A stretch of DNA of 64,000 nt, from assembly GCF_016545825.1 (NCBI RefSeq), contig NC_052614.1, forward strand, positions 20,540,559 through 20,604,558, written 5' to 3'. The notes beneath the pieces were generated by a model. That model was given only the letters and a program-made list of their open reading frames with translations. It was not told the DNA's origin and ran no database searches. How positions within the stretch are numbered: the first letter of the stretch is position 1; each line of letters starts with the position of its first letter. The DNA is from Eucalyptus grandis (Eukaryota > Streptophyta > Magnoliopsida > Myrtales > Myrtaceae). This document shows, one piece after another, positions 4,039-32,583 of this stretch. Made by a program: the position numbers and the translations under genes.

Positions 4039-4046
4039 GTTGTGGT
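4039..4046. repeat. Left 8-bp target-site duplication of Pack-hAT
   Basis: The sequence gttgtggt lies directly before the left terminus and recurs exactly after the right terminus at 17391-17398. Eight base pairs is the diagnostic duplication length of the hAT superfamily. Confidence 0.92.
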
Positions 4047-4058
4047 TAGGGGTGAGCG

Positions 4059-4200
4059 TGGTTCCGGGTAGAACCGAGAACCGGGGAACCGAACCACGGG
4101 TTCCTTACCGGTTCTGGTTCTAAGAAGACCGGTTCGGTTCCCGGTTCCATTTTCTAGGAACCGGGGTTCCCGGTTCCCATAGGAACGGAACCGGTTAAAT
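4059..4200. repeat. Left subterminal ggttcc-rich region of Pack-hAT
   Basis: Many short ggttcc and ggaacc motifs in both orientations, mirrored in the right end. These are likely transposase-binding subterminal repeats, by analogy with Ac and other hAT elements. Confidence 0.7.
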
Positions 4201-4370
4201 TTACAATTTAAAAAAAAAAAAAACTCTAAAGTACCCCACGATTTCCCCCTTTCCCTTTCTTTCTCTCTTGTCTTTTATCCCCTTTTTCCTCTCCTCACGT
4301 CACTTCCTGCTCCCCACTCCCACCCACTTTTTTCTTTTCTTCTCTCTCTCTTTCTCTCCCCCTCCCTCGG

Positions 4371-6196
4371 GACGGAGAAAATATTGGGTACGTCTTATGT
4401 ATCAACGTGGCAAACAAGGAGGCGCTCGCAGCGCGACACGTGTCCTTGTGGGACCCACAATTTCAGGCGCTCATTTTGAAAATTTCCAGATCAGAAGCTT
4501 ACGGAGAGAGGGTTTACGGTCGCGGGTTCTTTCTTTGCGCCTCTCTCTCCCCGACGAACTCCCTCTCTCTCTGCCCTCGCTTTTTCCGACTGCCGAAGCA
4601 CCGCGAGCAACCGGCGAACCAGGAGGATACCGGCGAGACGACCGCGAGCAACCGACCGGCGTGCGACCTCCCCCTCTCTCTCTGCCTTCCGGCGTGCGAC
4701 CACCCTCTTTTCGACCGACCGGCGTGCGACCTTCCTCTCTCTCTGCCCTCCCTCTTTCCGACCGGCGAACCACCGCGCCGCACCTCTGGCTCCGGTTCCG
4801 GCCCCAACTCGTCCGTCCTTACTCTTTCTCTCTACTCGCGTCTCTGTCTGCCCTCCCTCTCTTCGACAGCGAACCACCGCGGGACCGGCGAACCACCGCG
4901 CCCCCCTCTAGCTCCAGATCCGGCACCGGCTTGTCCAGGTAATTCCTCGCTTTCTCTTTTCTCTCTTTCTCTCTGTACGACGGGGTGACGGAAGGGATTT
5001 TATAGGAGTTCAGCGATGCCTGAAATGTCATTAGTAGTATGCTTTTCGCCTGTAGTTTTCTTTAATCTTGGGTTTGGCTATTCATCATGCCGGTAGGACA
5101 TACTCGAAAAGGCTCTAAAATGAGTGCTATTGTTGCAAATCATGGATAGTCCTTGAAAAGCCAGATCTGTTGTTCTTCCATATTGATGTTTATATGTATA
5201 TTCCCCAATAACTTTGCTGAGATGCACGGCAAATGCATCCAGTCTCAATTGATTATTGTCATGCGGTGTAGATTTTTATTGCCTCCGAGATCATTTGGTC
5301 ATATTTGTTTCCGTGTGTTTGCGATGCTTATGGTATAGACCTATGTGATCTCCGATGATGATTTTTTTTTTTTTGGTCGGATTTTAACTTTCTCGTATTT
5401 AATCCAATTGCGGGATGTGGCGGTGAAGGTATTCTCGATGCAAGAATATTCAGAAGAATTGATAAATTCCTTTAGACAAGAGGTTTGTTTTCTTTTTGTT
5501 TTACTATGTCTCATGAGTTCTCTTTGTTTCTAATATTATTCAGCCAGGACATGCTGAGGGTCGCTTAGACTTTTTAATTTGAATAAGGCATCTCTCGTAG
5601 GACATGATATGCAGGCTATGTCTTGCTCTAAGCTGTTGGCCTGTCATTGACTTGTTAATTGAAATCATGAAAACATCGTTATGATAGCGTTTAGTGATTG
5701 CTGGATGCGAGGTGGCTGGTTTAATTTTGATAAGGGCCTTCCTTGACGGGTTGTAATTGCAGTTGATGGTCTAGATTCAGGCGAGGCGGTGAGGGATAAT
5801 GGGTTAACCTTTTAGTTGATAATGAGCCCAAAAAGTGATCTATATTATCCCAGGATGTGACGAGTCAACATCGAGGTGCCAAATGACTCCATCTATTGTG
5901 TCACTTGCCCCTACATCTTCTGATTGTTCTTTTTTTCTTTTTCCTTTTCGATAAGAACTACATAGTCAAGATGGTTTAGGAAGAACATTCTGAAAACCAG
6001 TGTGATAAAGAGATGAAGTAAGATTGACCAACATGTTCGAACGCATGCATTTATCTCTCTCTCTCTCTTGTACTTGTATGACTAGCCCGTATTTTATTAT
6101 TTTATAAAATTCTGAAGCCTTTTAATGACCAGAATTTTTGGTGCTTATTCTGTAGCAACTGGGATTTTTTCCCCAAAGCACGGATATAGTTTATTG
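4371..6196. repeat. Left arm of internal long inverted repeat
   Basis: This 1.8-kb arm is the reverse complement of 13183-14985, with high similarity by eye and scattered substitutions and small indels. The outer limit is near 'gagaaaatattgggtacg'; the inner limit is 'tatagtttattg'. The outer 600 bp is a pyrimidine-rich, leader-like stretch ending in a plausible 5' splice donor near 4940 (ccaggtaatt). A Raf-like kinase exon follows at 5414-5482. The arm therefore looks like the 5' end of one gene (leader, intron, kinase exon, intron), inferred from these splice signals. Confidence 0.9.
5414..5482 (+). pseudogene. Raf-like protein kinase exon fragment (left arm)
   Basis: The 69-nt segment reads DVAVKVFSMQEYSEELINSF and then RQE. 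This matches the beta3 strand of plant Raf-like MAPKKK/PAS-kinase proteins, including the VAVK lysine that binds ATP, and the start of helix C. The donor 'gag|gttt' is kept, but the acceptor reads cgg instead of cag, unlike the right-arm copy. Only this exon of the kinase domain was found, so no kinase can be made. Assignment to the Raf-like family is from motif memory. Confidence 0.78.
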
Positions 6197-7000
6197 ATGT
6201 TGGGAGCGGCACTTGGGCTTGCTGGTTTGCCTTTACATTGTGTGATTTTTCTCCACTTTGCAGTTGTTGATTCATTTGTCCTTGTAAGCTCTTTCCTTCC
6301 CAATGGTGGTCCAACTTTTTCCATGGCTGTTTACCCATCTGAGTTCGGGATCCAGCGCATGAAAGAGGAAGAAATTTATGGCCCTGTTGGGCTCTTTGAT
6401 GATGAGGATGATAGGAATGAAGATTATTTGGACGAGAAACAGGACACTCTTGGTGAGATATTGAATGGAGATCGCCTAGTAACTGCTCCATATGAAGTAA
6501 AATTTCTACAGGGGAAGGATCAAGAGGTTGCGTGTGCAAAGAAGTTGACAAGTGAAGAAGTCTCTCAAATCCAAGCTACAATCAAGCAGTTTTATATATT
6601 TCAGATGTACTGTGATGACTTGCCAATCTGGGGATATATAGGAAAGGTGGAAGAATCACCTACAAATATTTCAGAGCACAAATATCTCCTTTACCAGCAT
6701 TTCGAAATTGAAATCTTTTTCAATAAGGATCAAATAATAGAGGCTCATTTGTTGATGCACCCTAATGAGGTAGTGGAGTTGGCTGAAGGCGGGAATATGG
6801 ACATAGAGCTACAGTTCAGCGTGCATTGGATGGTCTGGCGGGTTTCTTGTGAGACCTCAAAGTGTCCTAGAGAGGTCTCGTCACTCCAATGGTACGGGGC
6901 ACATTTCAACCGATGGTCTGGCTGGTTTCTTGCCTTTTTTTGTACAATCTACATGCAGCTGCATTACATGTTAATGAGCATGTGGGGTAATAGGGTCTAA
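6197..7000 (+). pseudogene. TM9SF (nonaspanin/EMP70) chimeric fragment
   Basis: A single open frame begins at 6125 and ends at 7000 (291 codons). From about 6430 to 6830 it matches the lumenal N-terminal region of TM9SF proteins, with LGEILNGDRLVTAPYEVKF, then FQMYCDDLPIWGYIGKVE and a YLLYQHFEIEIFFNKDQ-like segment. At about 6860 it jumps to the far C-terminal membrane region (CPREVSSLQWY, then IYMQLHYMLMSMWGNR), so roughly 300 residues of the family are missing between. Intact family members are about 590-650 residues, sit in Golgi/endosome membranes and have nine membrane spans. The first 70 residues are not TM9SF-like and begin in the inverted-repeat arm. The long open frame is notable, but the deletion makes normal function unlikely. 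Confidence 0.8.
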
Positions 7001-8339
7001 AAGTTTCACTTTTGTTGTTGAAAACAGAAAACTAAAAGTTTTATTCGATAAACTAAAGGGTTTATTTGCTAGCATTCTTATTCTAAATTTCGTGCTGCAT
7101 GTGTCATATTGCAGGTGAAGGAAAAGATCTAAAATTGGTGGGATTTTTGTTTCGGGTCATGTTAAAAGAGCTCTTTGAGGGAAGTCGATGACTTCTTATA
7201 TGGATGTGGACAGGTTTTAAAGAGTTACGGACTTATTAATGTGCAAGAAGAAGAATCTTATTGTCATTAAGGTTTTCCCTACCTGATGTTCATGTGCTAC
7301 GAAGCGTGCAAGAGGATTATGGTTGAGGATGATGAAGAGGCGTAACCACATATTTGACAAGAAGAAATGCGAGGTCTTTTGCTATGGGTCATCTATAGAA
7401 AGAGTGGATAAAGATCACTATTTTGCATACTACGATTTTTTTATTTTGGTCAGATGTATACTGTGATTGAATGGTTTAGTTTATGTTTTTTTCTTTTGCT
7501 CATACGATTTCTTCAAAAGAATTCTTCAAGGAAGTTCTTGTTACCAAGGTTGGTTCTACATGCACTCGCAAAGATATTCGAGGGGTTTACTTTTCTTTTG
7601 GGGTTCAATGTGTTTCTGAAGAAGGTACTGGCATGTTTTGATAATGTGAGTATTGCCTTTCATGAGAAGATGAGTTGGCAAGAGTCGAACCAAGAAAGAT
7701 GGCCAATTTGTCCAATAACATGCTGATTGAGATGCAATGTTTTTCACAGGGGCTACTTTGTGTGCATAAATCTCTTGGAGTACCTAACATAGGGAAAGCT
7801 TTTTTGCTTACTGGATTGTCGATTTGAATGAATAACAGTTTTATGTTTGGAGTTTGCTATTTCAATTTTACGTTTGAGTACCTTCAGCTTTCTTTTGACA
7901 GAACAAAGCTTTGTATTAAATGATCTTGTCGGATGTTGATTTTATTTTGATCCAAACTGTGGCTAGTTACCTTGCAAGGCAAAGCTCTCGCTGCCCTACT
8001 AATCTTGGAAAACCTGCGAGTCAAGGGATTGCTACTTAGTATGAAATCGAAAAGTGGCAATGATTCAACCGTCGAGTTTGAATTTGACAATATACAAAGA
8101 ACACAACATCACGTTTCAATTATTAGTAGTGTGAGAGAGAATTAATTGACGTGCGGGAAATGCTTTCCGTAGAGCAACATTAATAAAGCCATAATTTACA
8201 CGATAATTGTGGGAACATTAATAAAGGCATCGACTTAAGCTTGACCAATGAACTTGTTCTGTATTCGACCTTTTAAGTGCTGAATTAAGTTCGAAAGTGT
8301 TACATTCTTGTGATCAAACAATAAAATACTGCACAATAA
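7001..8339. other. Pack-hAT interior, origin unrecognised
   Basis: About 1.3 kb between the TM9SF and CesA fragments. A 90-codon open frame at 7454-7726 and exon-like stretches (for example after the 'ttgcag' near 7113) may come from further host genes, but I recognise no family. Confidence 0.4.
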
Positions 8340-8740
8340 ATAACAACAGACGAATCAATGGTTCGGGCCAACCAGTGGACCCCATGACTGATACCCACTG
8401 TTAATCGCATATGACACCTGCTACAATGCCAATGATGTTCACGATAAAAACTGTGGTCGGAGGAATGAGAAGCGATGTCATTTGAACACAAAGCTCAGCA
8501 AAGTCTCCTTCCTCATCGGCTACTTTCGAAGTGACTGAAGTTGGTATCAATGCCAGCAAGCACTTTAAGAAGCCCTTGGAACACAGCAAAAAGGTGAGCA
8601 GATGTACCACCGATGACCCAGAATTGCTCATTCCTCCACGAATCCTCAATGCTGAAACCACTCCAACGGAGCTCAAGAATACCAGTTGCGAAAATTGAGA
8701 CGAAAAGGAGAATGAACCACATGCTAGCAAAGTTGCTTAT
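8340..8740 (-). pseudogene. CesA cellulose synthase C-terminal fragment
   Basis: Read on the minus strand, the fragment starts after an acceptor (ttgcag at 8741-8746) with ISNFASMWF. It continues through [42 protein letters not shown], then [20 protein letters not shown] and SGYQSWGPL. This is the transmembrane region just after the QxxRW site of plant plasma-membrane cellulose synthase catalytic subunits. Two frame changes (around the DTNF/SKVADE junction and before SGYQSWGP) break it. The N-terminal RING, catalytic D residues and QxxRW are absent, so it cannot make cellulose. Confidence 0.9.
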
Positions 8741-8904
8741 CTGCAATTTTTTTTTTTTTTTAACATCAGATCAGTCATCAAATGAAAGAAAAGAGGAAAC
8801 AATCTCTAATTACGCTGAAATTACTAACATGTAGCTCTAGATAGTCTAGCGTAGAGACAACTATATTTAGTTTATGAAATTAGTAGTATAGCATGATAAG
8901 GAGA

Positions 8905-11455
8905 AGCACCAACAGCTAAAGCCGGTTGCTGCCCTAGAATTGAAGGTTGAGGATTCATCATCAGGGTGTTGGGGATTGTGTAGTCTCTGCTCCGATCATT
9001 GTTAACCTGGAAAAATAGTTAGCATATCAGTCAATTAACAATCTCCCACCTACTTTCTTCGAAAGTAAAAATGTAAGAGAACAATATCAGCAAATTAATG
9101 TTCGCATATATTCAAAGGCAAGACAAAATTATTATGACACGCCGTATATATCTAACATAGAAACTGAAATGCAGCACAAAATACTAAGACAATTATTTCC
9201 AGCCAGTCATAACAATTCACCAAGCTAATAAATCATAACCTCCCCCACAGAATAATCAATGAATAACAGATGAATAAACAGCAGATTCTAGAACTGTCTA
9301 AACGAAAATGACCAGGCTTCCGTACTATTTTATCTTAAAATAACATTAGTACATTCTCACAAAAGGAAGCGCTCACAACACTTGCTTCAGTTTTCAAATT
9401 CCCACCAATTCATGATATAAGAACAAATTACACAAAATGCCTCATGTTAAAGGGACCAAGTTTAAATCATGCTAGCACCTAAGTTTATCTTTCAAAGCAA
9501 GGGAAACAAGAGAGTTCAGATTCCCCGAATGATGACACAGAAAACACAACTGCAAATGGGTGTGACTTATATACGGTCACGTTGAAAATGGTAACACCAG
9601 ATCCAAGGAGATGAGCAGAACCTTGAACGTGTGGCATATTTGAAGTCAACAGCCAATGAAAGTTCTTGTTGCCAGAGACATCAATGAATGTTTCACCACT
9701 TTTCTCAAAGTGAAACAGCTTATACTGGCGAAATAGAATAATGTCATCCCTTATTCATCAGGTTTATACATATTTCACGTCATTCGCCCTTCTACAGGGA
9801 ACAGATTTCACTTTAACTGTTTTTAAGTGAAAACTAAAAACAAGTGATTGACATACTAGTGACTCTTTGAATGGTAATCGCTCTTGATCAAATGGTCAAT
9901 TGGAAGTGGCATCTTTCAAAATTCAACTGGAAAACTTGATATAGGAGAGGGAGTTTTGCCTTTTGTATCAAAAGCAAGGAAGTGTACATCCACGGTGTAG
10001 GATAGTCACAACTTGCTGAGATAAACGTAATACAGGGGGCAGCAGATGTAATTACCTTTATGCTAAGATCTGTATGGCGCGAATACGAGATATGGAGTTT
10101 GCAAAACCCCCGTCATATATGCAATGCCCTTCCAAAGCTTCCTTTGCAACTCCAGCTGTCTAAACATCTGCATGGACAGCAATGTGACAACCAACATGCA
10201 CTTCATTAAATGCATGCATATTTTTCACCCTAATACAAGAAAGATATTCTTCATCCAGAAAAATTCACTGCTCTTACTAACCAGGGTATTGAATCAATGC
10301 TTGGACCCCTCCATTCTTGTCAAACATGGCAATCTTCACGTACGGGTCCAAAAGCTGAAAAGACTGAACCGGGCGAAATTGGTGACAAACTTTTAAAACA
10401 CATGCTTACCCAAGAATGCAGATGAGAGAATTAAAAATAAAATAAAATAAAATAAATACCATGTGAAGAACATCCAATGTTACTGCATACTGCATATTCT
10501 CTATTGATGCGAGAAGGACATTGCTCTCAGGTTCTAATTTTTTCCCATCCAAGCCAACACTCAACTGCAGCATACAATGCAATGTTTGATCAAATCAATC
10601 AAATCATAAGGCAGACAAAATAATAAGCCCACCTCATTCTAACAGCGGATGTGATTACAACAAAGCAAATGTTGATTTTTGATTCCTTACCTGACCACTG
10701 CCATCTATAGCAGATGGAGCAACAGGAAGGTATGGATTAGTGTAGTCCCTGATAAACAAAAAAATGTCCATGGTAAAATACACAGTCGATCAATCAAGAA
10801 ACGGACATCAAACAAAGGCTTGGTATAAAAAACCCAATTAGAAAGTCACCTGCTCCGATGGCTCTGGAATTTCACACACGAGATATGTGTGGGCTGAATA
10901 TGTGATCCGAGGGTGCATGGCCCCATGTGCTCAGGAAGCAAATAGCTGTGAACCAAGACAAAGTCAGTCAGTAACCTTCATGTGAGTGCACTAGAAGAGA
11001 ATATGCTATCGCAACCCAAAAGAAATTCTCAAAGCACATGAACATGCCACTCTATGTTAAGAACTGCTTCTTTGTAACTAGAGAAATTTGATTTTTAGCT
11101 TAACTAGGAATTATTCTTTAAACACAATATATAGGTGATAAACTCATGCCAAAATATGCATTACTTTGGGCAACATGTACCAGTTCCAGTTGGACAAAAT
11201 ACCATGTCAAAAAATTAATACAACCGTCACCTAGGAATGCATCTTCCATCAAGGGCATTTTTTGCAGAAGAAGCAGTTTCGGCATTTGAAAATTGCACCA
11301 GGGCCTACAAACAAGATTTTAGTCAAGAATTTTTTGCTTAAATTATAAACTCTGTACAAAACCAAAAAAAAAGTCATCTCAGTTTTTGTCACCTGGAATC
11401 CAGCAGTTTTCTGAAAGGTAGTAATCTTGTGAACAAACCCAAAAGCTGAGAAGAC
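8905..11455 (-). pseudogene. Polypyrimidine-tract-binding protein (PTB) multi-exon fragment
   Basis: At least eight exons in correct order and with splice sites lie on the minus strand: 11455-11393 (VFSAFGFVHKITTFQKTAGF), 11304-11231 (ALVQFSNAE, ALDGRCIPR), 10945-10850 (YLLPEHMGPCTLRITYSAHT), 10748-10691 (DYTNPYLPVAPSAIDG), 10564-10461 (KLEPESNVLLASIENMQYAV), 10363-10282 (VFSAFGPV), 10155-10056 (VAKEALEGHCIYDGG) and 9006 to about 8905 (NNDRSRDYTIPNT). This is the order of RRM2-RRM3 and linker in plant PTBP1/2-type splicing regulators. Single-base frame errors occur in exons 10945-10850, 10363-10282 and 10155-10056, and RRM1 is missing. Retained introns show capture as genomic DNA, not via mRNA. 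Confidence 0.9.
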
Positions 11456-12495
11456 CTGCATTACCAATTAACCAAGAAAATTGTTCAGTATAAGAAGATT
11501 TTCTATCACAATTGGCTGCGATATTTTAATTAGTTTTTTCTTTTTTTTGGGTAAAAGCGATATTTTAGTTAGTTGTATTCTTGAGAAAGCTTAAATTAAT
11601 TCAGCAAGTTCGACTGAAAATTTAAGGTGTTCAATATTAAAAACTTGCCAAATGAAATGAAAATTCCATCCAAACAGCCAAAGCTAAACCTAAAGTCAAA
11701 AGCTAGAGCCAAGGCTAAAAATTGATCAAAAACAGGTTCAAAGCCACCCCAAACACAACAATGAGCTTTTCAAGACATCAGCATGGTAACACAGACAGTT
11801 GCTTTTATCGAAAAAGAAATTCCAACCCCTATCCCCTCTCAATATCAGTGTTATAAGAGATATCATCAGAATGTATTCAAATGTTACTTTCTGAGAGAAA
11901 CAAATATGAAAATTTACACAAATACGTACCAAAGTCAGAAGCATCACATGCAGCATTTAATTTGTTTTAGATCAAGAGATTGGTTAATGATTTCAAAAGT
12001 ACATCTAAATCAGCAAAATGTTGCTAGAAATCTCAGGTTTGGCACTCCAAACATAACAAGGATCACTGCCCAAGCATTTGCAAGCAATAAACACCCTATG
12101 ATGAGCTGTCAGTGAATTTTTCACATTGAGAAAAAAGAAAATCTTTCATGCAACAATGAGATTTATCCAATTTGATACGGAGGCGTCAAAATCTTCCTAA
12201 CAACTCTTTGACGTAGGGATCAGGCGTCAACCTCACATTATTGAGCATAGGCTTGTGGGTTTATGATTTTTTGTTCGTCGAAATTGTACATGATTTTCAT
12301 ACCGTCCAAAATTCCCGGCATGTACTACATGGAAGGGCAAAAATGCAGGGCTGAACATTTGCAACCAAAATCGGCGAGTACAAACAATCTCCCAGAAAGC
12401 AAGTCATGTATCCCCAAAAGAAGCACGACTCATACAGCTTTTTGATCCTACTTGGACAACCTCGGAAAAACACAAATCCCATTTTTCGTGCCACC
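11456..12495. other. Pack-hAT interior, probably captured intron
   Basis: AT-rich sequence between the PTB and HYPK fragments with only short, unrecognised frames. It may be PTB intron or 5' sequence of the HYPK donor. Confidence 0.4.
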
Positions 12496-12499
12496 AATT

Positions 12500-12720
12500 C
12501 TTTATCGAAGCAAGGAACAATTTCAGCAACAGCATCACCTTTATGCTCGCATAAGGTCCTTTCAGCCACCTTCCGATCCAGCCGTTCTCAGATTTTACCA
12601 TACACTACTAGAAAGCTCAGGCCAGTGAGAATAAATGCGTTCAAGCACATGGCATAAGCTGACCTCCCTCAAGTTCATTAGCGATTATGTCAACGTCAGC
12701 TGCATTGATCTTCACAGTTC
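12500..12720 (-). pseudogene. HYPK-like (huntingtin-interacting protein K) fragment
   Basis: Two exon-like pieces lie on the minus strand. The first (about 12718-12665) reads GTVKINAADVDIIANELE, preceded by ctgcag. The second (about 12580-12505) reads RKVAERTLCEHKGDAVAEI. Together they match the C-terminal UBA-like region of plant HYPK proteins, small ribosome-associated partners of the NatA N-terminal acetyltransferase. The N-terminal half and the last few residues are lost, and the intron between the pieces is short or altered. Identification rests on the VDIIANEL and ERTLxEHKGDAVA strings. Confidence 0.75.
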
Positions 12721-12724
12721 CCTG

Positions 12725-13182
12725 CAGGTTTAAGATTAGTTCCACAACTAGCTAATGAGGTTTCATAAAATTCTACATGAACGTACTTTATGAGAAGTGA
12801 GAAAAATTGTGGCAACATCAAAAGAGGTTCTCAGAATCTGCATGGTACTACGCATGCTGAGGGGGAGAGCATGGACGTACAACAATCGCAAAGTCCTATC
12901 GAAAGTTCCTCATTTGAGTAAAACGAGAAGGTATAATCCTTTCGTAGACCCACATGCTATTACATCTATCCAACACAACACAACACAATTAATCATAATG
13001 CAATGGATCAAGGCATGGAAAATATAAAGAAAAATATCCATAATCCTTTGGCAAAAAAAAAAAAAAAAAAAAAAAAGATCAAAACCTGCTATCACCACAT
13101 GTCCTGGAAAAGTTGCGTTGCTGTATTAGTGGAACAACACTTGAATTAAAATTGCCAATGCCATCACTAATAGAGCTGACGC
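12725..13182. other. Pack-hAT loop spacer with A-run
   Basis: No gene recognised. It contains an A-run of about 24 bases at 13053-13076 and ends at the inner edge of the right inverted arm. Confidence 0.5.
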
Positions 13183-14985
13183 CAATAAACTATATCCGTG
13201 CTTTGGGGAAAAAATCCCAGTTGCTACAGAATAAGCACCAAAAATTCTGGTCATTAAAAGGCTTCAGAATTTTATAAAATAATAAAATACGGGCTAGTCA
13301 TACAAGTGCAGAGAGAGAGAGATAAATGCATGCAGTTCGAACATGTTGGTCAATCTTACTTCATCTCTTTATCACCTTTGGTTTTCAGAATGTTCTTCCT
13401 AAACCATCTTGACCATGTAGTTCTTATCAGGAAAAGGAAAAAGAAAAAAAAGAACAATCAGAAGATGTAGGGGCAAGTGACACAATAGATGGAGTCATTT
13501 GGCACCTCGATGTTGACTCGTCACATCCTGGGATAATATAGATCACTTTTTGGGCTCATTATCAACTAAAAGGTCAACCCATTATCCCTCACGCCTCGGT
13601 CTGAATCTAGACCATCAACGCAATTACAACTGTCAAGGAAGGCCCTTATCAAAATTAAACCAGCCACCTCGCATCCAGCAATCACTAAACGCTATCATAA
13701 CGATGTTTTCATGATTTCAATTAACAAGTCAATGACAGGCCAACGGGCTTAGAGCAAGACATAGCCTGCATATCATGTCCTACGAGAGATGCCTTATTCA
13801 AATTAAAAAGTCTAAGCGACCCTCAGCATGTCCTGGCTGAATAATATTAGAAACAAAGAGAACTCATGAGACATAGTAAAACAAAAAAGAAAACAAACCT
13901 CTTGTCTAAAGGAATTTATCAATTCTTCTGAATATTCTTGCATCGAGAATACCTTCTTTGCCACATCCTGCAATTGGATCAAATACGAGAGAAAGTTAAA
14001 ATCCGACCAAAAAAAAAAAAAAAAAAATCATCATCGGAGATCACATAGGTCTATACCATAAGCATCGCAAACACACGGAAACAAATATGACCAAATGATC
14101 TCGGAGGCAATAAAAATCTACACTTTGCATGACAATAATCAATTGAGACTGGATGCATTTGCCGTGCATCTCAGCAAAGTTATTGGGAATATACATATAA
14201 ACATCAATATGGAAGAACAACAGATCTGGCTTTTCAAGGACTATCCATGATTTGCAACAATAGCACTCATTTTAGAGCCTTTTCGGAGTATGTCCTACGG
14301 CATGATGAATAGCCAAACCCAAGATTAAAGAAAAACTACGGGCGAAAAGCATACTACTAATGACATTTCAGGCATATTTGAACTCCTATAAAATCCCTTC
14401 CGTCACCCCGTCGTACAGAGAGAAAGAGAGAAAAGAGAAAGCGAGGAATTACTGGACAAGCCGGTGCCGGATTTGGAGCTAGAGGGGGCGCGGTGGTTCG
14501 CCGGTCCCGCGGTGGTTATTTGTCGAAGAGAGGGAGGGGGCGACAGAGACGCGAGTAGAGAGAAAGAGTAAGGACGTACGAGTTGGGGCCGGAACCGGAG
14601 CCAGAGGTGCGGCGCGGTGGTTCGCCGGTCGGAAAGAGGGAGGGCAGAGAGAGAGGAAGGTCGCACGCCGGAAGGCAGAGAGAGAGGGGGAGGTCGCACG
14701 CCGGTCGGTTGCTCGCGGTCGTCTCGCCGGTATCCTCTGGTTCGCGGTTGCTCGCGGTGCTTCGGCGGTCGGAAAAGCGAGGGCGAGAGAGAGGGAGTTC
14801 GTCGGGGAGAGAGGCGCAAAGAAAGAACCCGCGATTGTAAACCCTCTCTCCGAAGCTCTGATACCGGAAATTTTCAAAATGAGCGCCTGAAATTGTGGGT
14901 CCCACGAGGACACGTGTCGCGCTGCGAGCGCCTTCTTGTTTGCCACGTTGATACATAAGACGTACCCAATATTTTCTCCTCGGAC
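13183..14985. repeat. Right arm of internal long inverted repeat
   Basis: Reverse complement of 4371-6196. Long perfect stretches alternate with single changes and small indels. Both arms keep the pyrimidine-rich leader, the kinase exon and the sequence up to 'gggattttttcccc'. The two arms are separated by about 7 kb, so a read-through transcript could fold into a 1.8-kb stem. Confidence 0.9.
13899..13967 (-). pseudogene. Raf-like protein kinase exon fragment (right arm)
   Basis: Inverted copy of the kinase exon at 5414-5482. It reads DVAKKVFSMQEYSEELINSF and then RQE, so the residue before the ATP-binding lysine is changed from V to K. This copy retains a proper acceptor (ttgcag) and the gttt donor, so it may be the less altered copy at its 5' edge. 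Confidence 0.78.
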
Positions 14986-14996
14986 GGAACCCCCTT

Positions 14997-15034
14997 CTTC
15001 TTCTTCTTCTTCTTCTTCTTCTTCTTCTTCTTCC
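14997..15034. repeat. (TTC)n microsatellite
   Basis: About twelve tandem ttc units directly outside the right arm of the inverted repeat. Its position suggests the arm boundary fell in or beside this repeat. Confidence 0.95.
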
Positions 15035-15321
15035 TTCCTCCTGCTGGCTGCTGCTTCACCCACCACCACACCGCCGCCCCACGCCCTACTCACCAACACC
15101 TCTTGGCCATCGAACCACCACCACCCACTGCTCGTCCGATGAGCCGTCTCGCTGTTGAGCTCAATGAGCCGTCGCGCCGTCCGTGCCACTACTCGCCGCT
15201 GAGAGCCATCTCCCTTGACATCACCGTTGGACGCCGTCACCCCTCGCTCGCCTCGCCGCTCAGCCGCTTGCCGTCAACGCCGCCATTAGACGTCGCTCGT
15301 CCCCGCGGTGGAGGCTGCTCG

Positions 15322-15463
15322 CTCGCCCAGCCGCCCCGACGTTGCTCGCCGCTCGCCCAGCCGCCTTGACGCTGCTCGCTCGCCACTCGCCCAGTCGCCT
15401 CGAAGCCGCTCGCCACTCTCCTAGTCGCCCCGACGCTGCTCGCCGCTCGCCCAGCCGCCTAAT
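15322..15463. repeat. ~30-bp GC-rich minisatellite, about five units
   Basis: Degenerate tandem units begin with ctcgcccagccgcc and end with gacgctgctcgcc. The units vary by substitutions and small indels. Confidence 0.8.
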
Positions 15464-15486
15464 GAGCCTTAACTCCACACCCCTTC

Positions 15487-15530
15487 GCCTCCGCCTCCGC
15501 CTCCACCTCCACCTCCACCTCCACCTCCAA
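15487..15530. repeat. Hexanucleotide (CCTCCR)n repeat
   Basis: Tandem cctccg, then cctcca units, about seven in all, followed by unique sequence. Confidence 0.85.
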
Positions 15531-15965
15531 CTCAGTTGCACCCCCACTCTCTCTCTCCTTCCGCCTGTTTGGTCGGGGGCAACGTGGGACGCCCTCGGAG
15601 ACTCCGGCGGGGGCCTACCAGCTGATCGACGATGAAACGGTAGGGTTGGATTTATCTCAGTTTATTTGGATTTTTAGCTTGCAAAATGTTTTTGTAGGAC
15701 GTATGACAGTTGAATTTAACTAAAGTCATTTAACTCGACCATGTTATGTTCATTTTAGTGACAAGTGGACCATATTTTTCTCATTGAGCCTTCCGTATGT
15801 AAACCTGGGATTTGTTAAAATAGCATGCTACTGAAGTGAGAGAAGCTGAGTCCAAGTTGTTCTTGTCTATTATGTTTATGCAATTTCAAGGGAGTATGGC
15901 ATTAACGTAACTTTAGTCTTTTACCTTTTGATTCTATTGTAAGCTTCTATTTCATTTCACGAGAT

Positions 15966-16790
15966 CCCAACAAATGGAGCTGGTTTGATTGAGTATATAT
16001 GCCATCCTTTTCGGTCCCGAATGTACTGTCCGTCGCATGAGCATGACAACACAACTTGATGTTGTAGTTGCAAGCGTTTGGAGGTAGTGGTCTAGGCTAG
16101 CACAAGTAAATGCAATGCCATGCTTTGTTCCCACAATCTTGCGGATTGTATATTTTAAATGCATTGAATCAGCTGTACTCATTTTTTTGTTTTTCTTTCT
16201 TTTGATATTTATTTTACCTCGACGGTCGTGGAACACAACATACATATCTTTGGGAGATGGACGAAGTTTATGCCTCGAGTGCATGGAATCTGCTATCATG
16301 GACACTAGTATTTGTCAACCACTTTATCATGCGATCGAGACTACTATGAAGGAATGAACATGAAATTGGATCAGCAAATTCCAATGCTTTTGGTTGAAAG
16401 ACAAGCACTTAATGAGGCTATTGTTGGAGAAAAAAATGTACGACATGGTATGAGGTTTGGGTTTTCTTTCAAAGTTGGTGTGCCATTCTGATGCTAGTTT
16501 TCTGCGGGGCCACCATCACATGCCGAGACAAAGAGGTTTATGTCTTTCCGAGGAGCAAGCGTGTCCAGTGTATGATATTGGACATCTACGATTTTGCTTT
16601 CGGGAAATCAGAGTAAATCCTTGAGCAAGATTCACCTGTTCAATTTTACACTCGTTTCATTGCTTTTGTATTCAGGTTCACCCGAGACTTGGAGGCCACG
16701 GGCTTGTTGGAATGAAAACTCAACCTAGAAATTGACAAGGAAATGCGAAGTTACAGCCATTCTTGTTCTTTATGGTCTACCGAGGTAAGT
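15966..16790 (+). pseudogene. DA1/DAR-type LIM peptidase fragment
   Basis: Plus-strand exon pieces match plant DA1 ubiquitin-activated peptidases, negative regulators of organ size. They read CHPFRSRMYCPSHEHD and CCSCKRLE (about 15990-16082), then YISLGDGRSLCLECMESAI and MDTSICQPLYHAI (about 16230-16340), then QQIPMLLVERQALNEA (about 16370-16430), GHHHMPRQRGLCLSEEQ (about 16508-16560) and CEVTAILVLYGLPR (about 16745-16785, followed by a gtaagt donor). A stop codon interrupts the first piece after the HEHDNTT string, and the downstream HEMMH metallopeptidase motif was not found. The order of pieces follows the family, so this is a truncated genomic copy. Confidence 0.85.
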
Positions 16791-17239
16791 GTGACTGAAA
16801 AGCTCTTGTTTCACAAAGTAATGAATATATTTATTAAGTACACAATAGCTCTTCATATACATGTTTTAAAAATTTGTAGGTTAGAAAGACTTCTTGAGGA
16901 TGAGTTGACAAACAACTGCATATTTGACGGGTCTTCCTAAGTAGACGATCTAAACTTTTCCAATGCATAGTTGTTAGGAAGTCCCATTGAGCTGTGACAG
17001 AGAGACTTTCCCAACATAGAGCTTCAGAAAAATGGTCGATGCTAATGAAACTTCTTGTATAGTTCAATGGATGCTTATACTTCATTTCGGAGTGATGGCA
17101 TTATGGGTCCTGTTATGGAGAAGTACGTCTTGGAAGTGAAAGTGTTGTGATAAGTTGGCGTGGCCATTTCTCGAGATAAGTATTGTGAAAGTTTTGCTTA
17201 ACTAAAGATGAAAAAAAAAAAAAAGAACTTGTAAGAACA
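16791..17239. other. Pack-hAT right interior, unrecognised
   Basis: Follows the DA1-like donor site. An acceptor-like 'ttgtag' occurs near 16879 but the sequence after it does not match the DA1 peptidase region that I know. Confidence 0.4.
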
Positions 17240-17378
17240 CGGAACCGACCACGGAACTGTAATAGGGTAGGTTCCGGGTTCCAAGTTCCAACGGGTAGAT
17301 TCCGGGTTCCAAAAATTAGGAAACTGTACCCCAAGGTAGGTTCCGGGTTCCGGGCGGAACCTGTAAGGAACCTGGAAT
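17240..17378. repeat. Right subterminal ggttcc-rich region of Pack-hAT
   Basis: Repeated ggttccgggttcc and ggaacc motifs mirror the left end and lead into the right terminal inverted repeat. Confidence 0.7.
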
Positions 17379-17390
17379 CGCTCACCCCTA

Positions 17391-17398
17391 GTTGTGGT
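17391..17398. repeat. Right 8-bp target-site duplication of Pack-hAT
   Basis: Exact copy of the left duplication, gttgtggt. Confidence 0.92.
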
Positions 17399-21007: not shown

Positions 21008-21241
21008 TGTTGGATATATTATTAATATAGTCCAAAACAATATGTTCACATACAAGCCCAATAGGTAAAAGCATGGTTATTTGGGTCCATATGGGCCGAA
21101 GCCCAATAACGTGCATATAAAAACTCTAGGGTTTCCTCTGTTGGAGGTAACATTATTGTTGAAAGCATTCCAAACTTGATGTCTCTTGGTGTAATACTTC
21201 AAGCAACTACTTCTTCTCTCTCAAACCTATTACCTCTAACA
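21008..21241 (+). repeat. 5' LTR of Copia 1 (234 bp)
   Basis: Direct partner of 26799-27029. It differs by scattered substitutions and a few indels, mostly around 21140-21170. It contains the cattccaaacttgatg motif (21166-21181) that recurs in the element's 3' internal region. Confidence 0.95.
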
Positions 21242-21783
21242 ATCTTGAAGTATTAGGTTCGTGTGTCGGATTTGAGCGAGTAAAGTGTGTTCTTGAAGAT
21301 TTCGTCAAGACGAATTCGCGGCTGTAATTTACTTTTGATTTCGACGGTGATATTGGCCGGGATCTGAGTTTGAAGATTCGGGTGACCGAAATCTTTGATT
21401 CAAAAACCCAAAAATTATAGCCAATTTAAGAGGGTGAAACCACTTGGGCTTTGATCTACTCGTCGCTACGAACGTTTTGAGTGGTCACTCGCGTCAATCG
21501 GAGGTCGGACGGAGAAGTTATGGCACCCGGAAGTTTCCATCTGAATTTCTAGCGAATTTTGGGGACGAAATTTCTAGCGAATTTCGGGGGCGAAAATTTC
21601 CAGCGAGTTTCAGTGACAAAGGCAGTCCATCTTAAGGTTTTTGGGCGCTCCAGATCTGTTTTTGGGGTTTGTTTTGGCAAATTCCATCTTTACAAAGTAG
21701 TTTGATCAAGGTTAGGGAGTTATTCAACTTTGTTGCTCGAGGACTTCAAGGTGCACTCTTTCTAACACTTTGCTTTGATTAAA

Positions 21784-22440
21784 ATGGCAAAGCGTAGTTC
21801 CTATGATATTATAAAGTTGCAATCTTATGATGTTACTGAATTTCATGGCTGGAAATTACATGTTCAATTTGGCATGAAAGAACGTGACATATTCTATCTT
21901 GTATTGAGCGATTTTACATCTACCACTGAAGATGTGAATGAATATCAATGGAACAAAGATGAGGATTTTTGTAGAGATTACTTGCTGAACTCTCTGAATC
22001 CTAATTTGGCTATGACTTATAGTGAGTATAAGACGGCGAAAGAGATATGGGATCACTTGAACGCTCAGTTCCAAAAACAAGAGGGGTTATCTAAAACCCT
22101 CCTAGCGGAGAAATTCTTTGACTTTAAATTCACTATGAATTCAAGCATCACTTCTCAGTTAGTTGAATTTGAGAACATGAGGAACAAGCTGAAAGATGAT
22201 AATTCGATATGTCCGATAATCTCTTTGTTGGTCTTGTGTTGAGCAAGCGCCAGGCGAATGGAGTTCTTTCAAGACTGAAATGCACTGGTGAAGGTACAGA
22301 TGGGACTGGATGAATTAAAGAGGTATATTCACATTGAGGATCAAAATATCACTAGGAAGAGTTTGGAACAAGTGGGACAACAAAAGTCAGTTGCCAACTT
22401 AGTCTCACACTCCAATAAACCTCGAAAAAGTCCAAGTCAC
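21784..22440 (+). pseudogene. Copia 1 gag
   Basis: The frame from 21784 opens MAKRSSYDIIKLQSYDVTEF and holds a Copia-type gag (UBN2-like) domain with WDHLNAQFQ and KTLLAEKFFDFKF strings. It breaks near 22230 by a frame change, after which gag-like sequence continues in other frames. Start chosen at the methionine that best fits other Copia gag proteins. Confidence 0.8.
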
Positions 22441-22499
22441 CAAAAGGTGAATCCTCTTTACTGAGTTAGAGGCCAAAAAGACTATCTTAAAAAAGAAGA

Positions 22500-22830
22500 A
22501 GAAGGGCAAGTGCCATAAGCTGTGGAAAGTGGGGTCACTTTGGGTAGCGAGTGTAAGTTGCCAAGGAAGCCAAATAACGACACACCACATAATGAGACCA
22601 ATATGCTTATTAGAGGATCGAGCCTCGAGCCTTTATTGGAATGATGAAGAATGGAAAGGCCAGCATCTCTTCGAGTGGTGGTTGGACGGTGGCGCTACTT
22701 GTCATGCTACAAATGACAAGAATTTACTCACGAGGTCACGAAGTGAAAGACGTGGAAAATTGCAATGGTGGTGAGGCAAAGGTGACTCATCTTGGAACCG
22801 CAAATTTGGTGCTTTCTTCGGAGGTAAATT
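22500..22830 (+). pseudogene. Copia 1 zinc knuckle and protease remnants
   Basis: A CCHC zinc-knuckle region lies near 22510-22575 but is split by small frame changes. The protease active site is seen near 22680 as DGGAT, where family members have DSGAT, so the motif is altered as well as displaced in frame. Confidence 0.7.
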
Positions 22831-23049
22831 ACTAACTCTGAAACATGTTAGAGTAGTACCTTTACTTAAGAAGAATTTAATATCTATGAGTTTACTTGAT
22901 AAAGCTGGTATGTCTTTTTCAACTATGAATGGTAGAGTAACTTTATCTGTTAACTCATATTATTTTGGTTGTGCATTCATGGTTAATGGTATGTATAGGT
23001 TGAGTTTAAATGCTTTGATAGCATAAACCATGTGAATTCTACTTTGATC

Positions 23050-23850
23050 GATCCAAAGTTGCTACACAATAGACTTGGACATGTGAATTACAGGAAAATG
23101 CAACATTTAGCTAAAACTCATAACATTCCATTAGATACTTCTATTCGATTTGATAAGTGTGAAGTGTGTGCACGAGGCTAAAATTACTAGAAAACCCTTT
23201 AAATTGATTTCTAAAAGCACACAACTTCTTGAGCTAATACATTCTGACATTTGTGATTTTAGAAATTACATTACTAAAGGTGGTCGGAAGTATCTAATAA
23301 CATTTATAGACGATTTTTCTAGATATTGTCATGTCTATTTGTTGAAATCGAAAGATGAGGCTTTTGAAAAATTTAAGATTTTCAAGTCTAGAGTAGAAAA
23401 TCAACTCAACTTGAAAATTAAGAGGTTTAGGAGTGATAGAGGAGGAGAATATACTATGTCAAGGTTCAAGGAATTTTGTGCTTGAAGGTATAATACTTGA
23501 AACCACTTGCTCCTTATTCACCCCAATCAAATGGTGTTGCAGAGCGTAAGAATAGAACGTTAACTGAAATGTTAAACTCTATGTTACTTACAGCTGGCAT
23601 GCCTTCCTCCTACTGGGGAGAAGCAGTTCTAACTGCTAATCACATCTTGAACAGGTTGCCGCACTCTAAGTTGTCCATGACACCTTATGAGATATGGCAT
23701 AAGCGCCCTTGTAGATATGATACTCTTAAGACTTGGGGCTGTATTGCTTATGTAAGTATACCAGATCCTAAAAAACCTAAGGTGGGATCTAGAACTATTA
23801 CTTGTGTATATCTAGGTAGTGCGAAGATAGCGCTGCAAATAGGTTTTTAG
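23050..23850 (+). pseudogene. Copia 1 integrase
   Basis: A GAG-pre-integrase segment (LGHVNYRKMQHLAKTHN, near 23075-23115) leads into the integrase core. The catalytic triad is visible: D in LELIHSDICDF, D in RFRSDRGGEY, and E in SNGVAERKNRTL. Frame changes near 23160 and between 23485 and 23497 split the protein in three. The family function is insertion of reverse-transcribed DNA. Confidence 0.88.
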
Positions 23851-23865
23851 ATCTATCTACTACGA

Positions 23866-24861
23866 GTGATAGAATCTAGAGATGCAGTGTTCTTTGAAAA
23901 CAAGTTTATCAGAGATCAAAGCTTGAATGTTTCTGGATCTACAGATATGATTTCAGAATCTCCTGTAGAATTTGAAGCAGGCCCTTCTGACACTAATTCC
24001 ACACAGTTGGCTATTGAACCAATTCCAGTTAGAGTATCTACAAGAGAGAGAATTCCCAAAAGTTTTGGTGAAGACTTTGTTGCTTACCATCTTGAGGATG
24101 ATCCATTCTCCTATCAAGAAGCAATGAGATCTAGAGAATCTCTACTGAGGGCAGAAGTCATAGATGATGAAATGAGCTCTCTGCTAGAGAATCACACTTG
24201 GCAGCTAGTAAATTTGCCAAAAGGGGCTAAAGCTATAGGCTGTAAATGGGTGTTGAAGAAGAAACTGAATAGTGATGGATCAATAGCCAGATACAAAGCA
24301 CGCTTAGTAGCTAAAGGCTATAAACAACAGAGTGGAATAGACTATTTTGATGTCTATTCACCTGTGTGTCATCTATCAACTATAAGAATTCTTCTTGCTT
24401 TGGCATCTATTGAACACTTTGTAGTGCATCAAATGGATGTAAAAACAGCTTTCTTAAATGGGGATTTAAATGAGGAAATTTACATGGAACAACCGGAAGG
24501 ATATGTTATGAAAGGTCTTGAGGACAAAGTTTGTAAATTAAATAAATCTCTATATGGTCTTAAACAAGCACCTAAGATGCGGCATCTTAAATTTGATGAA
24601 GTGGTAAAGAGTTATGGCTTTCAGTCTAGTTATTCAGATAAATGCCTTTACCATCGTTCTATATCAAATAAGATAGTCATCATTTGCTTGTATGTTGATG
24701 ACATGTTAATTCTTGGTTCCGATCATTCTGTAGTGAGTGACGTGAAAGCTACTTTAGCTAAAGAATTTGACATGAAAGATCTTGGTATTGCTAATACCAT
24801 TCTTGGTATGAAAGTAAGCTTTGAACGGCAAGTCATCTCCTTAGCAGACTCATTATATTGA
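23866..24861 (+). pseudogene. Copia 1 reverse transcriptase
   Basis: A 331-codon open frame includes ARLVAKGYKQQSGIDYFDVY, VHQMDVKTAFLNGDLNEEIY, LYGLKQAP and the active site YVDDM (about 24690-24705). It ends early at 24861 by frame change, just after the ILGMKVSF string. This is the longest intact coding part of the element. Confidence 0.9.
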
Positions 24862-25616
24862 GCATCTACTTTCTACTTGGGGATACGATAAGTGTAAACC
24901 GAGTGAGACACCATGTGATTATAATAATAGCGAGTCCTAATGAAGGGACCAGCGTGGATCGGTTAAAGTACTCGAGCGATTGGTAGTCTCATGTATGCTA
25001 TGAGTTGCACTAGACCCGACATAGCCTTTACAGTTGGTATGCTGAGTCGTTTTACTAGTAATCCTAGTAAAGAGCATTGGGATGCCCTTAATAGGCTAAT
25101 GAGATACCTTAAAGGTACTAAAGATTATGCGTTTTATTATTATGGTTATCCTCCAATTGTGGATGGATATTCTGATGCCTCATGGTGCTCAGATATTGGA
25201 AATAGTAAGTCCACTAGTGGGTATGTATTCACTTTAGGTGGAGCTGCTATTACTTGGAAATCCAAACGACAGACTTGTATTGCATTGTCGTCTATGGAAT
25301 CGGAACTTTTGCTTTAGCCTCAGCGGTGAAGAGGCAGAGTGGATAAAGAATCTGATTATGGATATTCCTTTGACTCGACTAAAAATTAATTCTTTAAGCC
25401 TATTCTGTGATAATCGAGCAGCTGTCCAAGTCGTCAAGAATACTCTCTTTAATTCAAAAGAAGACATGTGAGGCGAGACATGCGTTGTTGAATTATCTGA
25501 GAGAACAAGGGGTTATCACCTTGATCGATGTGAGATCGAAGGATAACATAGCCGATACTCTCACCAAAGGTATGCCTAAAGATCGATTATTCAAAACAGT
25601 GGGAAGCTGGGGTTAA
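24862..25616 (+). pseudogene. Copia 1 RNase H
   Basis: Three overlapping frames hold CTRPDIAFTVGMLSRF, DGYSDASWCSD, STSGYVFTLGGAAITWKSK, ALSSMESE, FCDNRAAVQV and the DNIADTLTKGMPK end. Two frame changes (near 25310 and 25460) separate them. The catalytic acidic residues are present but not in one frame. Confidence 0.88.
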
Positions 25617-25761
25617 AGACTATATAGGCAAGTCTTAACTACCATTTACTTACCTGTGTTTTGAATTATCAAATCTTTCTTTATTGGCTACAATGATAAG
25701 CACGGTTTATATGTTTCATTGATGTTCTGATTGCTGACTAATTGAAGAGGGTGAGTTGTCT

Positions 25762-26140
25762 CATTCCAAATTTGATGAAGATGACTTTAACCTAATTCAA
25801 ATGTTCTATCTGGAAAAATTGTGTCATTCCAAACTTGATGATACAATTCAACTAGACTGGACTATCCTTTTTGGTTAAATGATCTCATTCCAAACTTGAT
25901 GCTAGATTATTTGACTTTAAGGAATCGTAATTGTGACATTCCAAATTGAAACATAGAAACAATTGTTTACATAAGAAGCCTATTTGTCTTGTTCTTAATT
26001 GAAACTTGATATTACACGACTAGGTTGTTGTAAGTGACTTGACTATTGGTCTTGTTCTTTGAAACTAGACAATAGTTATTCTCCTACAAATAAACTTAAG
26101 TTGATGGCTCTTTGTAAATCACATTGTTTAAGTCTTGTTC
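25762..26140 (+). repeat. ~60-bp degenerate repeat array shared with the LTR
   Basis: cattccaaacttgatg or close variants start at 25762, 25825, 25886 and 25937 (spacings 63, 61, 51). The same 16-mer occurs in both LTRs (21166 and 26954). A second word, gtcttgttc, follows at about 25986, 26048 and 26132. The array lies between the RNase H end and the 3' LTR. Confidence 0.8.
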
Positions 26141-26788
26141 ATAATTTATGAAAGCGGCTTGATGCTTATGACATGATATTATGATGCTTTATGACATCAA
26201 TATATGTTCTTCTCCGCCTGATGGAATGGTGCTAAGTTTTTATTCACTTGATTGAATTCATGATAATATGAAATTCATATTTGACATTCTACAGGGGATG
26301 GCAGAGATGGAGGAGAGCTTAATGAGTGGGATCCTGACCAGGATAACCTACTTGATGAATGAATATATATCACTTAGAGCGTGTGGGGACTTGACAGTTT
26401 ACCTGCTATTGCCTATTTTGATGAAGTCCATTTACTTGAGACTTGCATTTTGCTATTTCTATTTTGTGGACATTATTATGCTTGTTTCTTATATTTGTAA
26501 GGCCTTAGACTATTTTGACTGGCCTACTTATACTTTATTAATATGCATATATTGGTTGTGAACGAATCTGAGATTTATTTTGGGATTTGGATTTTTAATC
26601 TCGAGAACATATTCATGATAAGAATGATTCACTTATTTAGTTTGCACATGATGATTTAGTTTAATACTTTATTGCTGGAATACTCTTTGACCGATCCGAG
26701 TTGATTGTCTTGGACTGAATGTGGATGATTCATGTTTGTTTGAACATTACACTGACCAACTTATTGGATTGTGCTGTATGGTGAACAT

Positions 26789-26797
26789 AGGAGGAGA
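26789..26797 (+). promoter_or_regulatory. Polypurine tract of Copia 1
   Basis: A purine run, aggaggaga, ends one base before the 3' LTR, where plus-strand DNA synthesis would start. Confidence 0.8.
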
Positions 26798-26798
26798 T

Positions 26799-27029
26799 TG
26801 TTGGATATATTATTAATATAGTCCAAAACAATATGTTCACATACAAGCCCAATAGGTAAAAGCATGGTTATTTGGGTCCATATGGGCCGAAGCCCAATAA
26901 CGTGCATATAAAAACTCTAGGGTTTCCTACTGTTTGGAGGTAACACTGTTGAGCATTCCAAACTTGATGTCTCTTGGTGTAATACTTCAAGCAACTACTT
27001 CTTCTCTCTCAAACCTATTACCTCTAACA
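26799..27029 (+). repeat. 3' LTR of Copia 1 (231 bp)
   Basis: Starts TGTTGGATAT and ends CTCTAACA, followed by the gtttc duplication. Confidence 0.95.
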
Positions 27030-27474: not shown

Positions 27475-27957
27475 ACCACGCACGAATTAAGTCACACCGG
27501 TTAGGTTTGCACAACATCTATCTTCCAACAAGAAGAAGTCGCTTTTGGCAATTCTTGGACTAGACATTGCAGGAATTGGACTAAATACCTTATTCTATCT
27601 ATCAATTCATTATCGTGGAGAAAGATTCTGGTGGGAAGCTGTAAATGGGAGAATATGAAGGGAAGGGTAATAATACGCATTTTTCAGTGTGTTATAAACT
27701 TCATATACAAGTTAGGGTTTGTGCATGTGAAGTGCATGTGAAGTGGGGTAGATGATAGATTTCAGGAAAAGAAAATTAAAGGGCTCTGGTTTCTTCTTCC
27801 ATGTTAGATCTGACATATATTCCCTTTGAAATCGGTGTTGGCTATAGACTAAATTAAAAGAGGTAATTACCTTGAAGGGAATGAGATACTTAACATATGC
27901 TACTCATTTTAAGATTGATTGATCAAAGTAGGCAATCGGTGTTGCATAAGATGTTCA
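27475..27957. repeat. Repeat block B', copy 2
   Basis: Matches 1605-2030 in the same orientation, but lies left of block A' here. It has about 50 extra bases near 27789-27840 relative to copy 1. Confidence 0.7.
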
Positions 27958-28039
27958 ATCCTTGATCCTAGCATTGTGCTGTCATGGATGACTAGATCTA
28001 AAAGGAGAAGATATTTGTCTTTCCTGTGCCAATGTTTGT

Positions 28040-29560
28040 GAAGTGGACAAAACTGATGGTAGAAGAGACTCTAGATGATATCTACAAGCAATTTTAATTT
28101 CTTCTAGGATGAGATTTTAGTGGCAGAAGAAAAGGGCACAGACTACTGACCATGTAATCTCAATTCTCAAGAGTGTGTTCACCTAATTTTAGTTCCTCCT
28201 TCACTTTGCCGGTGCCGTGTCTAGCCTCTGCTGGTGTCGCTTCTAGCCTCCGCTGGTGTCACTGTCCATATTTGGCTGTCGATGGCCGAATGCGTTCAAG
28301 GCTGCCGTCAGCATATAGTTCGTCCTTGGCTGCTCGTTAGCACAGTCCATCCATGGCCGAGCACGTTTAAGTGTCGTTGGCGTTGCTGCCCATGCCGTGC
28401 TGAAGCCCCCGACTTCGTTCATCTGTTTATTATTTGCTATTTGAACTCGCAGTTGAGGCCACTGGGATATCGAGCTCGCTGTCAAGGCTCACAACGACGG
28501 ATGAGCCGTGGCCGCTAGATATGTGGATGAGCCGCCTCACGAGCCATGGACGAGCAAGGCTTGGAGATGAGCCACCATATTTGCGCACGCGGTCGTGGTC
28601 ATGTTCGGAGTTTAGAAATCATCCTTCTTGCTTCTTTTTGTACGAACTCCGCGTGATTGTATGTGGTCGGGCCTTGAACTCATTCTATGTGAGAATTTCC
28701 CCTCCTTCGATACTTCTCCATATTTTATTTCTGGAAAAATTTTGCTTTCCGCTCCTATACTTTCACGAATTTTTTAATTCTTAATATTTCTAATCAAATT
28801 TCTTTGCTTGCACAAATTATCTCATTAAGTCTCCTGATACCAAATTTGGACACACAACTGTCGAATGACATTAGAGATTGATGTGGGCACCATTTTGTCA
28901 ATGTTGACGAATTCTTTTTTTTATTCTTTTCCTTTTTTTTCATGGTAGCATCCATGTCGATAAATTGTCCTGATGTTGTTGGACAATCATGTCGGATGAG
29001 TTTGGCCAAATATGGTGTTGGAAGATCTTCATTTGACTATTTGCGCAAGAGTAAGGATTTTGTTAGAAAATAAAAAAAATATCAGGATTTGATTAGAAAA
29101 AGCATAAAATCACGGGAGAAAAGTATTTTTTTTCTTCTAATTGATGACTATTTCATTGGATTGGTCTATTGTTATTTTAAGATGGAGCAAACTTTTTTAT
29201 TTTGGTGGAGTTGCATTTAGCTCTACAAGATCATGTGCATGGACCACTTGTCCTGAATATTGACCTGCCGCTCGTAATCTTGTCACTTTTCTTGAATGTT
29301 GTCATATTGCTTCGTTATGCGTTGCGTGGTAGCTTGAATAAGCTACCACTTCTCTTGGAACTGTACTAAAGTAAGGAGAATTCTGCTTGGTTCATCGCAT
29401 TGGTCAGGCCAAGCTTGCCGAAAAAAAGAAAGAAAAAAATCGGGCCCTATGAGTAAGAAAAAGCTTATAGTTCACACTAACTCGCGAATAAGCCCAGTTT
29501 AGTAAGCCCATGATCTCCCTCTCCAAAATACAATTGTCCTTTGGCAATGTATGCCTTCTC
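28040..29560. repeat. Repeat block A', copy 2
   Basis: Matches 1-1585 in the same orientation. Its right end was later approached by Copia 2, which begins about 115 bp downstream. Confidence 0.7.
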
Positions 29561-29676
29561 AATATTTAGCATCTCCTTCCAAAAAAAGACATTGATCTGG
29601 GAATTGGAGATCCACGGCGGACAACACATCCTACCACTTTTTTATTTTTGGCGGTGCAATTCAAAGCATTCCGGTC

Positions 29677-30099: not shown

Positions 30100-30100
30100 T

Positions 30101-30112
30101 TGATATCGAGCC
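30101..30112 (+). promoter_or_regulatory. Candidate primer-binding site of Copia 2
   Basis: tgatatcgagcc directly follows the LTR. It resembles the initiator-tRNA-Met site tggtatcagagc with one substitution and a one-base deletion. Confidence 0.6.
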
Positions 30113-30189
30113 TAGTACGGATCGGGGCGAAAAATCCCGACACCCAAGCACTGTACGTCCTTTTTTCTGAGTTTCCGTAAGTCGGAATC

Positions 30190-32580: not shown

Positions 32581-32583
32581 TAA

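Follow-up and report, generated by a model that had tools for sequence, protein, structure and literature searches.

A Pack-MULE carrying several gene pieces nested inside a hAT element with a DA1-like piece in Eucalyptus grandis

The window considered here is a stretch of 64,000 nucleotides of the 616-Mb Eucalyptus grandis genome (contig NC_052614.1, C3:20540559-20604558), in which positions 4047-17390 had been taken, in an earlier note made from the letters alone, for a single 13.3-kb Pack-hAT with pieces of at least six host genes. We find that this segment almost certainly consists of two nested non-autonomous transposons: a 10.6-kb Pack-type Mutator-like element (Pack-MULE), whose arms hold Raf-like kinase gene sequence and whose interior holds pieces of ESF1, TM9SF, CesA, PTB and probably HYPK, and a 2.7-kb hAT with a DA1-like gene piece that encloses it.

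The hAT at 4047-17390 is a real element, bounded by both a terminal inverted repeat and a target-site duplication. The inverted repeat is perfect over 12/12 bp, with TAGGGGTGAGCG at 4047-4058 and its exact reverse complement at 17379-17390, and it lies within a perfect 8/8-bp duplication of GTTGTGGT at 4039-4046 and 17391-17398. Both features had been described correctly in the earlier note, as had the mirrored GGTTCC-rich ends; of the 14 GGTTCC and 12 GGAACC copies in the window, 11 and 6 respectively fall within these two ends (200 bp each). Seven pairs of a perfect 12-bp inverted repeat within a perfect 8-bp direct repeat, at most 20 kb apart, occur in the window: one is the pair of hAT ends (4047/17390), and the other six are palindromic and occur because long inverted-repeat arms contain them. 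No such pair appeared in 60 first-order Markov simulations of the window. The hAT is made up of a left part with the terminal inverted repeat, the GGTTCC-rich end and a CT-rich stretch (4047-4374, + strand), a GC-rich part common to relatives with other loads (14979-15771, +), the DA1-like piece (15772-17074, +) and a right end with a GGTTCC-rich stretch and the second inverted repeat (17190-17390, -). At 63298-63336 there is another TAGGGGTGAGCA tip, followed by GGTCC-rich sequence and perhaps representing a further hAT end.

The inner element spans 4375-14978 and is bounded by 1.8-kb inverted-repeat arms, which the earlier note had overlooked together with the separate element that they delimit. 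By self-comparison, 4374-6196 matches 14979-13183 at 94.5% identity with gaps counted; over 1777 aligned bases without gaps the arms are 97.4% identical, corresponding to a Kimura two-parameter (K2P) distance of 0.027. The left arm (4375-6196, +) has its tip GAGAAAATAT at 4375, and the right arm (13183-14978, -) has its tip ATATTTTCTC at 14978. Imperfect copies of a target-site duplication flank the arms at 4366-4374 (CTCGGGACG) and 14979-14987 (CTCGGACGG), positions at which sister hATs are uninterrupted.

Sister hATs were sought because the target-site duplication of the window MULE is weak evidence on its own. A genome search with 14980-17200, in which the best 40 of 326 candidates were scored, yielded five further hAT copies with 89-93% identity over most of the query. 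All five fetched copies lack 4375-14978 and read straight through the MULE site. Four of them are 2618-2699 bp long, three with perfect 8/8 and one with 7/8 target-site duplications, and they stand at K2P distances of 0.058-0.067 from the window hAT. The MULE is thus nested inside the hAT, both of its junctions matching the site that is uninterrupted in the sisters, and the search for sister elements that the earlier note had suggested overturns its view of one 13.3-kb hAT with six or more donors, as the Raf, TM9SF, CesA, PTB and HYPK pieces all belong to the nested MULE. Without the MULE, the hAT is about 2.7 kb long and holds one identified gene piece.

The pieces inside the MULE were assigned by domain matches and by donor loci. 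The Raf-like kinase gene sequence occupies 5331-6196 in the left arm, with an exon near 5416-5482, and the exon is present in both arms. At 5331-5335 several sister loci have some 380-600 extra bases (about 19 kb in one case), with flanking matches that overlap by 5 bp; either an insertion there or a deletion in the window copy would account for this. The ESF1 piece, also missed by the earlier note, lies at 6227-6424 (+; PF25121) and is 89% identical to C9:37009804-37010000, an ESF1 exon and the sole one of the nine candidate places, all scored, that lies outside element copies. The adjoining TM9SF/EMP70 piece (6417-6999, +; PF02990, above the Pfam cut-off) consists of two patches, 6417-6831 and 6846-6999, which derive from two parts, separated by about 980 bp, of a single Pfam-matched EMP70 gene on C7; between the patches lies a filler (6829-6849) that is similar to positions 2503-2524 of the donor (E 0.012). 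Next comes an unidentified stretch, 7005-8365, which the interior genome query found to be common to other multi-copy loci and which gave no Pfam match above cut-off in the two open reading frames (ORFs) tested. The CesA piece (8367-8905, -) matches PF03552 above the Pfam cut-off and a cellulose synthase in the PDB at 1.5e-36. All 35 places found with it were scored, giving 12 full-length copies at 92-100% identity (including the window), 3 partial copies at 95-97% and 19 places at 67-81%, which we presume to be CesA genes. A truncated CesA at C10:19286100 was rejected as the donor, its 90% identity extending over just 245 bp.

The PTB piece (8905-12227, -) has kept its introns and is colinear over 3.3 kb with C11:3469704-3473001 at a K2P distance of 0.036; it was identified through this donor locus, the spliced exons of which match PTBP1 at 1.1e-25. 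A probable HYPK piece follows at 12227-12718 (-), where PF19026 scores 19.4 bits (6.7e-4) against a cut-off of 27, and the other half of the domain reaches 17 bits in a sister copy. All ten places found were scored, and none could be demonstrated to hold an intact HYPK gene; C9:1914371 is unconvincing as a donor, as the same stretch includes part of the 12716-13182 piece. This last piece (12716-13182, -) extends the Raf-like sequence found in the right arm, probably as an intron, and directly adjoins the arm at several loci, those on C1 and C11 among them. The next kinase exon after sequence of this type is present in the sister element at C3:19785059-19794550; the arm exon alone gives no significant kinase match, and the two exons joined match PK_Tyr_Ser-Thr at 3.5e-9. 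The name Raf-like is based on the motif and not on a search result. The frames of ESF1-TM9SF, HYPK and Raf gave no match in the PDB. Of the gene identities given in the earlier note, those of TM9SF, CesA and DA1 are borne out by Pfam cut-offs and that of PTB by its donor, and those of HYPK (below cut-off) and Raf (in joined exons only) are weak. Donor loci were found for four pieces, and those of CesA, HYPK and Raf are not pinned down. The loci for ESF1, TM9SF, PTB and DA1 lie on C9, C7, C11 and C7, on different chromosomes or far apart; the fragments are therefore dispersed in origin, as the earlier note had supposed, and an origin from one syntenic host region is not supported.

ESF1 and TM9SF are fused in a frame of 294 amino acids, which only the window copy keeps open; the longest open stretch in the five fetched sister copies is 129, 94, 87, 206 and 170 amino acids; the frame is thus broken or shortened in all five, so no function is indicated and a functional chimeric ESF1-TM9SF gene was rejected, with the limit that the frequent small indels between copies may partly be assembly error. 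The captured gene pieces are most likely passengers.

The DA1-like piece of the hAT matches PF12315 above the Pfam cut-off, and its likely donor on C7, at a K2P distance of 0.069, also contains PF12315; in this donor, LIM and DA1-like exons flank the captured part on both sides. Two more distantly related hATs, L046 and L047, have the ends and the GC-rich stretch in common with the window element and carry a protein-kinase-like piece in place of DA1, its Pfam scores falling short of the curated cut-offs; L046 has a perfect 8-bp target-site duplication, and one tip only was found for L047. The outer element is best explained as a non-autonomous 2.7-kb member of this hAT family with a DA1-like gene piece. 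The earlier suggestion that hATs in this lineage gather host genes hence holds for DA1 and, below cut-off, for the kinase-like piece of L046, and fails for the other pieces, which belong to the MULE.

Relatives of the MULE were found with an arm query (best 40 of 299 candidates scored) and an interior query (best 40 of 84), and among the matches scored they lie on C1, C2, C3, C4, C8 and C9, among others. Five sister insertions have perfect 9-10-bp target-site duplications: C3:32402992-32410940 (10/10), C3:19785059-19794550 (9/9), C8:13537069-13544222 (9/9), C9:19557188-19563848 (10/10) and C1:13793900-13800836 (10/10). The first has a twin 50 kb away with the same flanks and a 9/10 duplication, and because of these shared flanks the two probably represent a single insertion in a duplicated region. 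The sisters hold subsets of the load of the window MULE, and the borders of the gene pieces are sharp and recur across several elements. For instance, in the C1 element a single Raf arm is paired with a short arm (73%), and the sequence 6197-9895 is present. A C4 copy has the interior and one Raf arm; its other end, a short arm that includes 9731-9895 in inverted orientation, looks by sequence like a copied C1-type end. In the sister MULE stretch L078 (G000:C3:19787300-19792250), several additional kinase-gene exons are present together with the HYPK piece. As the sisters carry subsets of the load, a stepwise, shuffled assembly is suggested.

Hence, we hypothesize that the gene pieces entered one by one, through template-switching repair of breaks or gaps that copied from DNA, and that pieces were exchanged among MULEs with common ends. 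Copying from DNA would explain why PTB has retained introns and why TM9SF shows a skip and a filler. The divergence between the arms is even, at 2.62% in the outer part and 2.67% in the Raf part, which would point to one arm having been copied onto the opposite end in a single step. Movement would depend on transposases made elsewhere. Gap-filling and template-switching models, including FoSTeST, are described in PMC8277862. On balance we lean, by a narrow margin, towards regarding this MULE family as a modular fragment shuffler, in which elements with the same ends swap gene pieces and whole ends (the gene-holding arm having been copied in one event), extant sisters represent successive states, and such loads can insert into other transposons, hATs among them, and so add to their length.

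That a single Pack-hAT gathered all of the pieces by itself now appears exceedingly improbable; its outer inverted repeat and target-site duplication are perfect and its family does carry gene pieces, but 4375-14978 is missing from all five fetched sister hATs and the block is also found independently of hATs, in elements with 9-10-bp duplications of their own. Scarcely better is the proposal that the inverted repeat arose by local inverted duplication within the hAT, or that misassembly produced the nested arrangement. An imperfect assembly would account for the numerous small indels that separate the copies, but elsewhere these arms form the ends of independent elements with perfect duplications, and both junctions match a site that is uninterrupted in the sisters. 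A weightier but still unlikely alternative is that the MULE joined the hAT at another place and that the hAT, by then 13.3 kb long, subsequently transposed to the present site with its whole load, which it would thus have carried at least once. Both hAT ends look intact, and a perfect outer duplication around an imperfect MULE duplication would fit a younger outer insertion; however, no second copy of the composite was found in the hAT searches (the best 40 of 334 and 40 of 326 candidates), and the K2P values (0.027 between the arms, 0.058-0.067 between the hAT and its sisters) give no date for the landing. That the arm distance is the smaller of the two fits an entry of the MULE after the hAT family had spread, although arms can be homogenised. 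The present data are compatible with the window hAT having landed either before or after it received the MULE.

The reading of a Pack-MULE nested in a Pack-hAT also has points that weigh against it. The two copies of the MULE target-site duplication differ by an edit distance of 2 over 9 bp, and a distance of 2 or less was obtained for 1759 of 200000 random pairs of 9-mers from the same flanks. No MULE or hAT transposase was found among the 20 of 85 listed ORFs that were scanned, and no genome search for transposases was made. The HYPK and Raf identities are the weakest of the gene pieces, and the match of the TM9SF filler is short. Among the sisters, the C4 MULE copy is without a left tip, the left end belonging to the arm at C2:46807700 (which ends at 46809525) was not found in the fetched stretch, and the fifth sister hAT (L043) has an altered left end and no target-site duplication that could be found.

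Elsewhere in the window, 21008-27029 and 29677-36908 are bounded by direct repeats (96.6% and 98.3% identical) and have RVT_2 and integrase matches; they are probably two copia-type long terminal repeat retrotransposons. The first 2036 positions recur at 27516-29562, 26-28 kb further on and in the same orientation, with 78-97% identity. A TNL disease-resistance gene sequence lies at 49137-57144 (-), with a TIR domain (1.5e-29), an NB-ARC domain (4.5e-31), a Roq1-like winged helix and two long frames judged by eye to be LRR-like.

Pack-MULEs are a well-described class, reportedly treated by Jiang 2004. Acquired sequence within extended terminal inverted repeats has been described for them in PMC3310237, and the window element resembles them in its long inverted repeats, the 9-10-bp target-site duplications of its family, its intron-bearing gene pieces and its copies with distinct duplications. 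It differs in that its arms measure 1.8 kb, whereas 100-500 bp is given as typical in the same text, and in that it holds six gene pieces and sits inside a hAT. With the MULE removed, the hAT shows nothing unusual: a length of 2.7 kb, a DA1-like piece, no transposase among the ORFs scanned and family members with other loads agree with the Pack-hAT and Pack-TYPE elements of PMC8903248. A multi-gene load of exons and introns between transposon ends is also reported in PMC1947982 for the soybean CACTA element Tgm-Express1, in which five fragments of host genes occupy 5.7 kb; it belongs to another superfamily, and its transcripts are known, unlike those of the window element. Multi-gene Pack elements and Pack-MULEs are thus already known, and the nested pair is a rich example of a Pack-MULE within a Pack-hAT; no report of this element, or of any Pack-MULE nested in a Pack-hAT, was found in the accessible portions of the open-licence PMC text.

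An outer terminal inverted repeat and target-site duplication are no proof that a single element captured everything between them, and for Pack-TYPE elements, reported sizes and numbers of donors call for a check that no other element is nested within. If the series of sister MULEs holds, the stepwise assembly of a multi-gene Pack-MULE would be testable within one genome, since that genome contains apparent intermediates with target-site duplications, donor loci for four pieces and a junction that is possibly templated.

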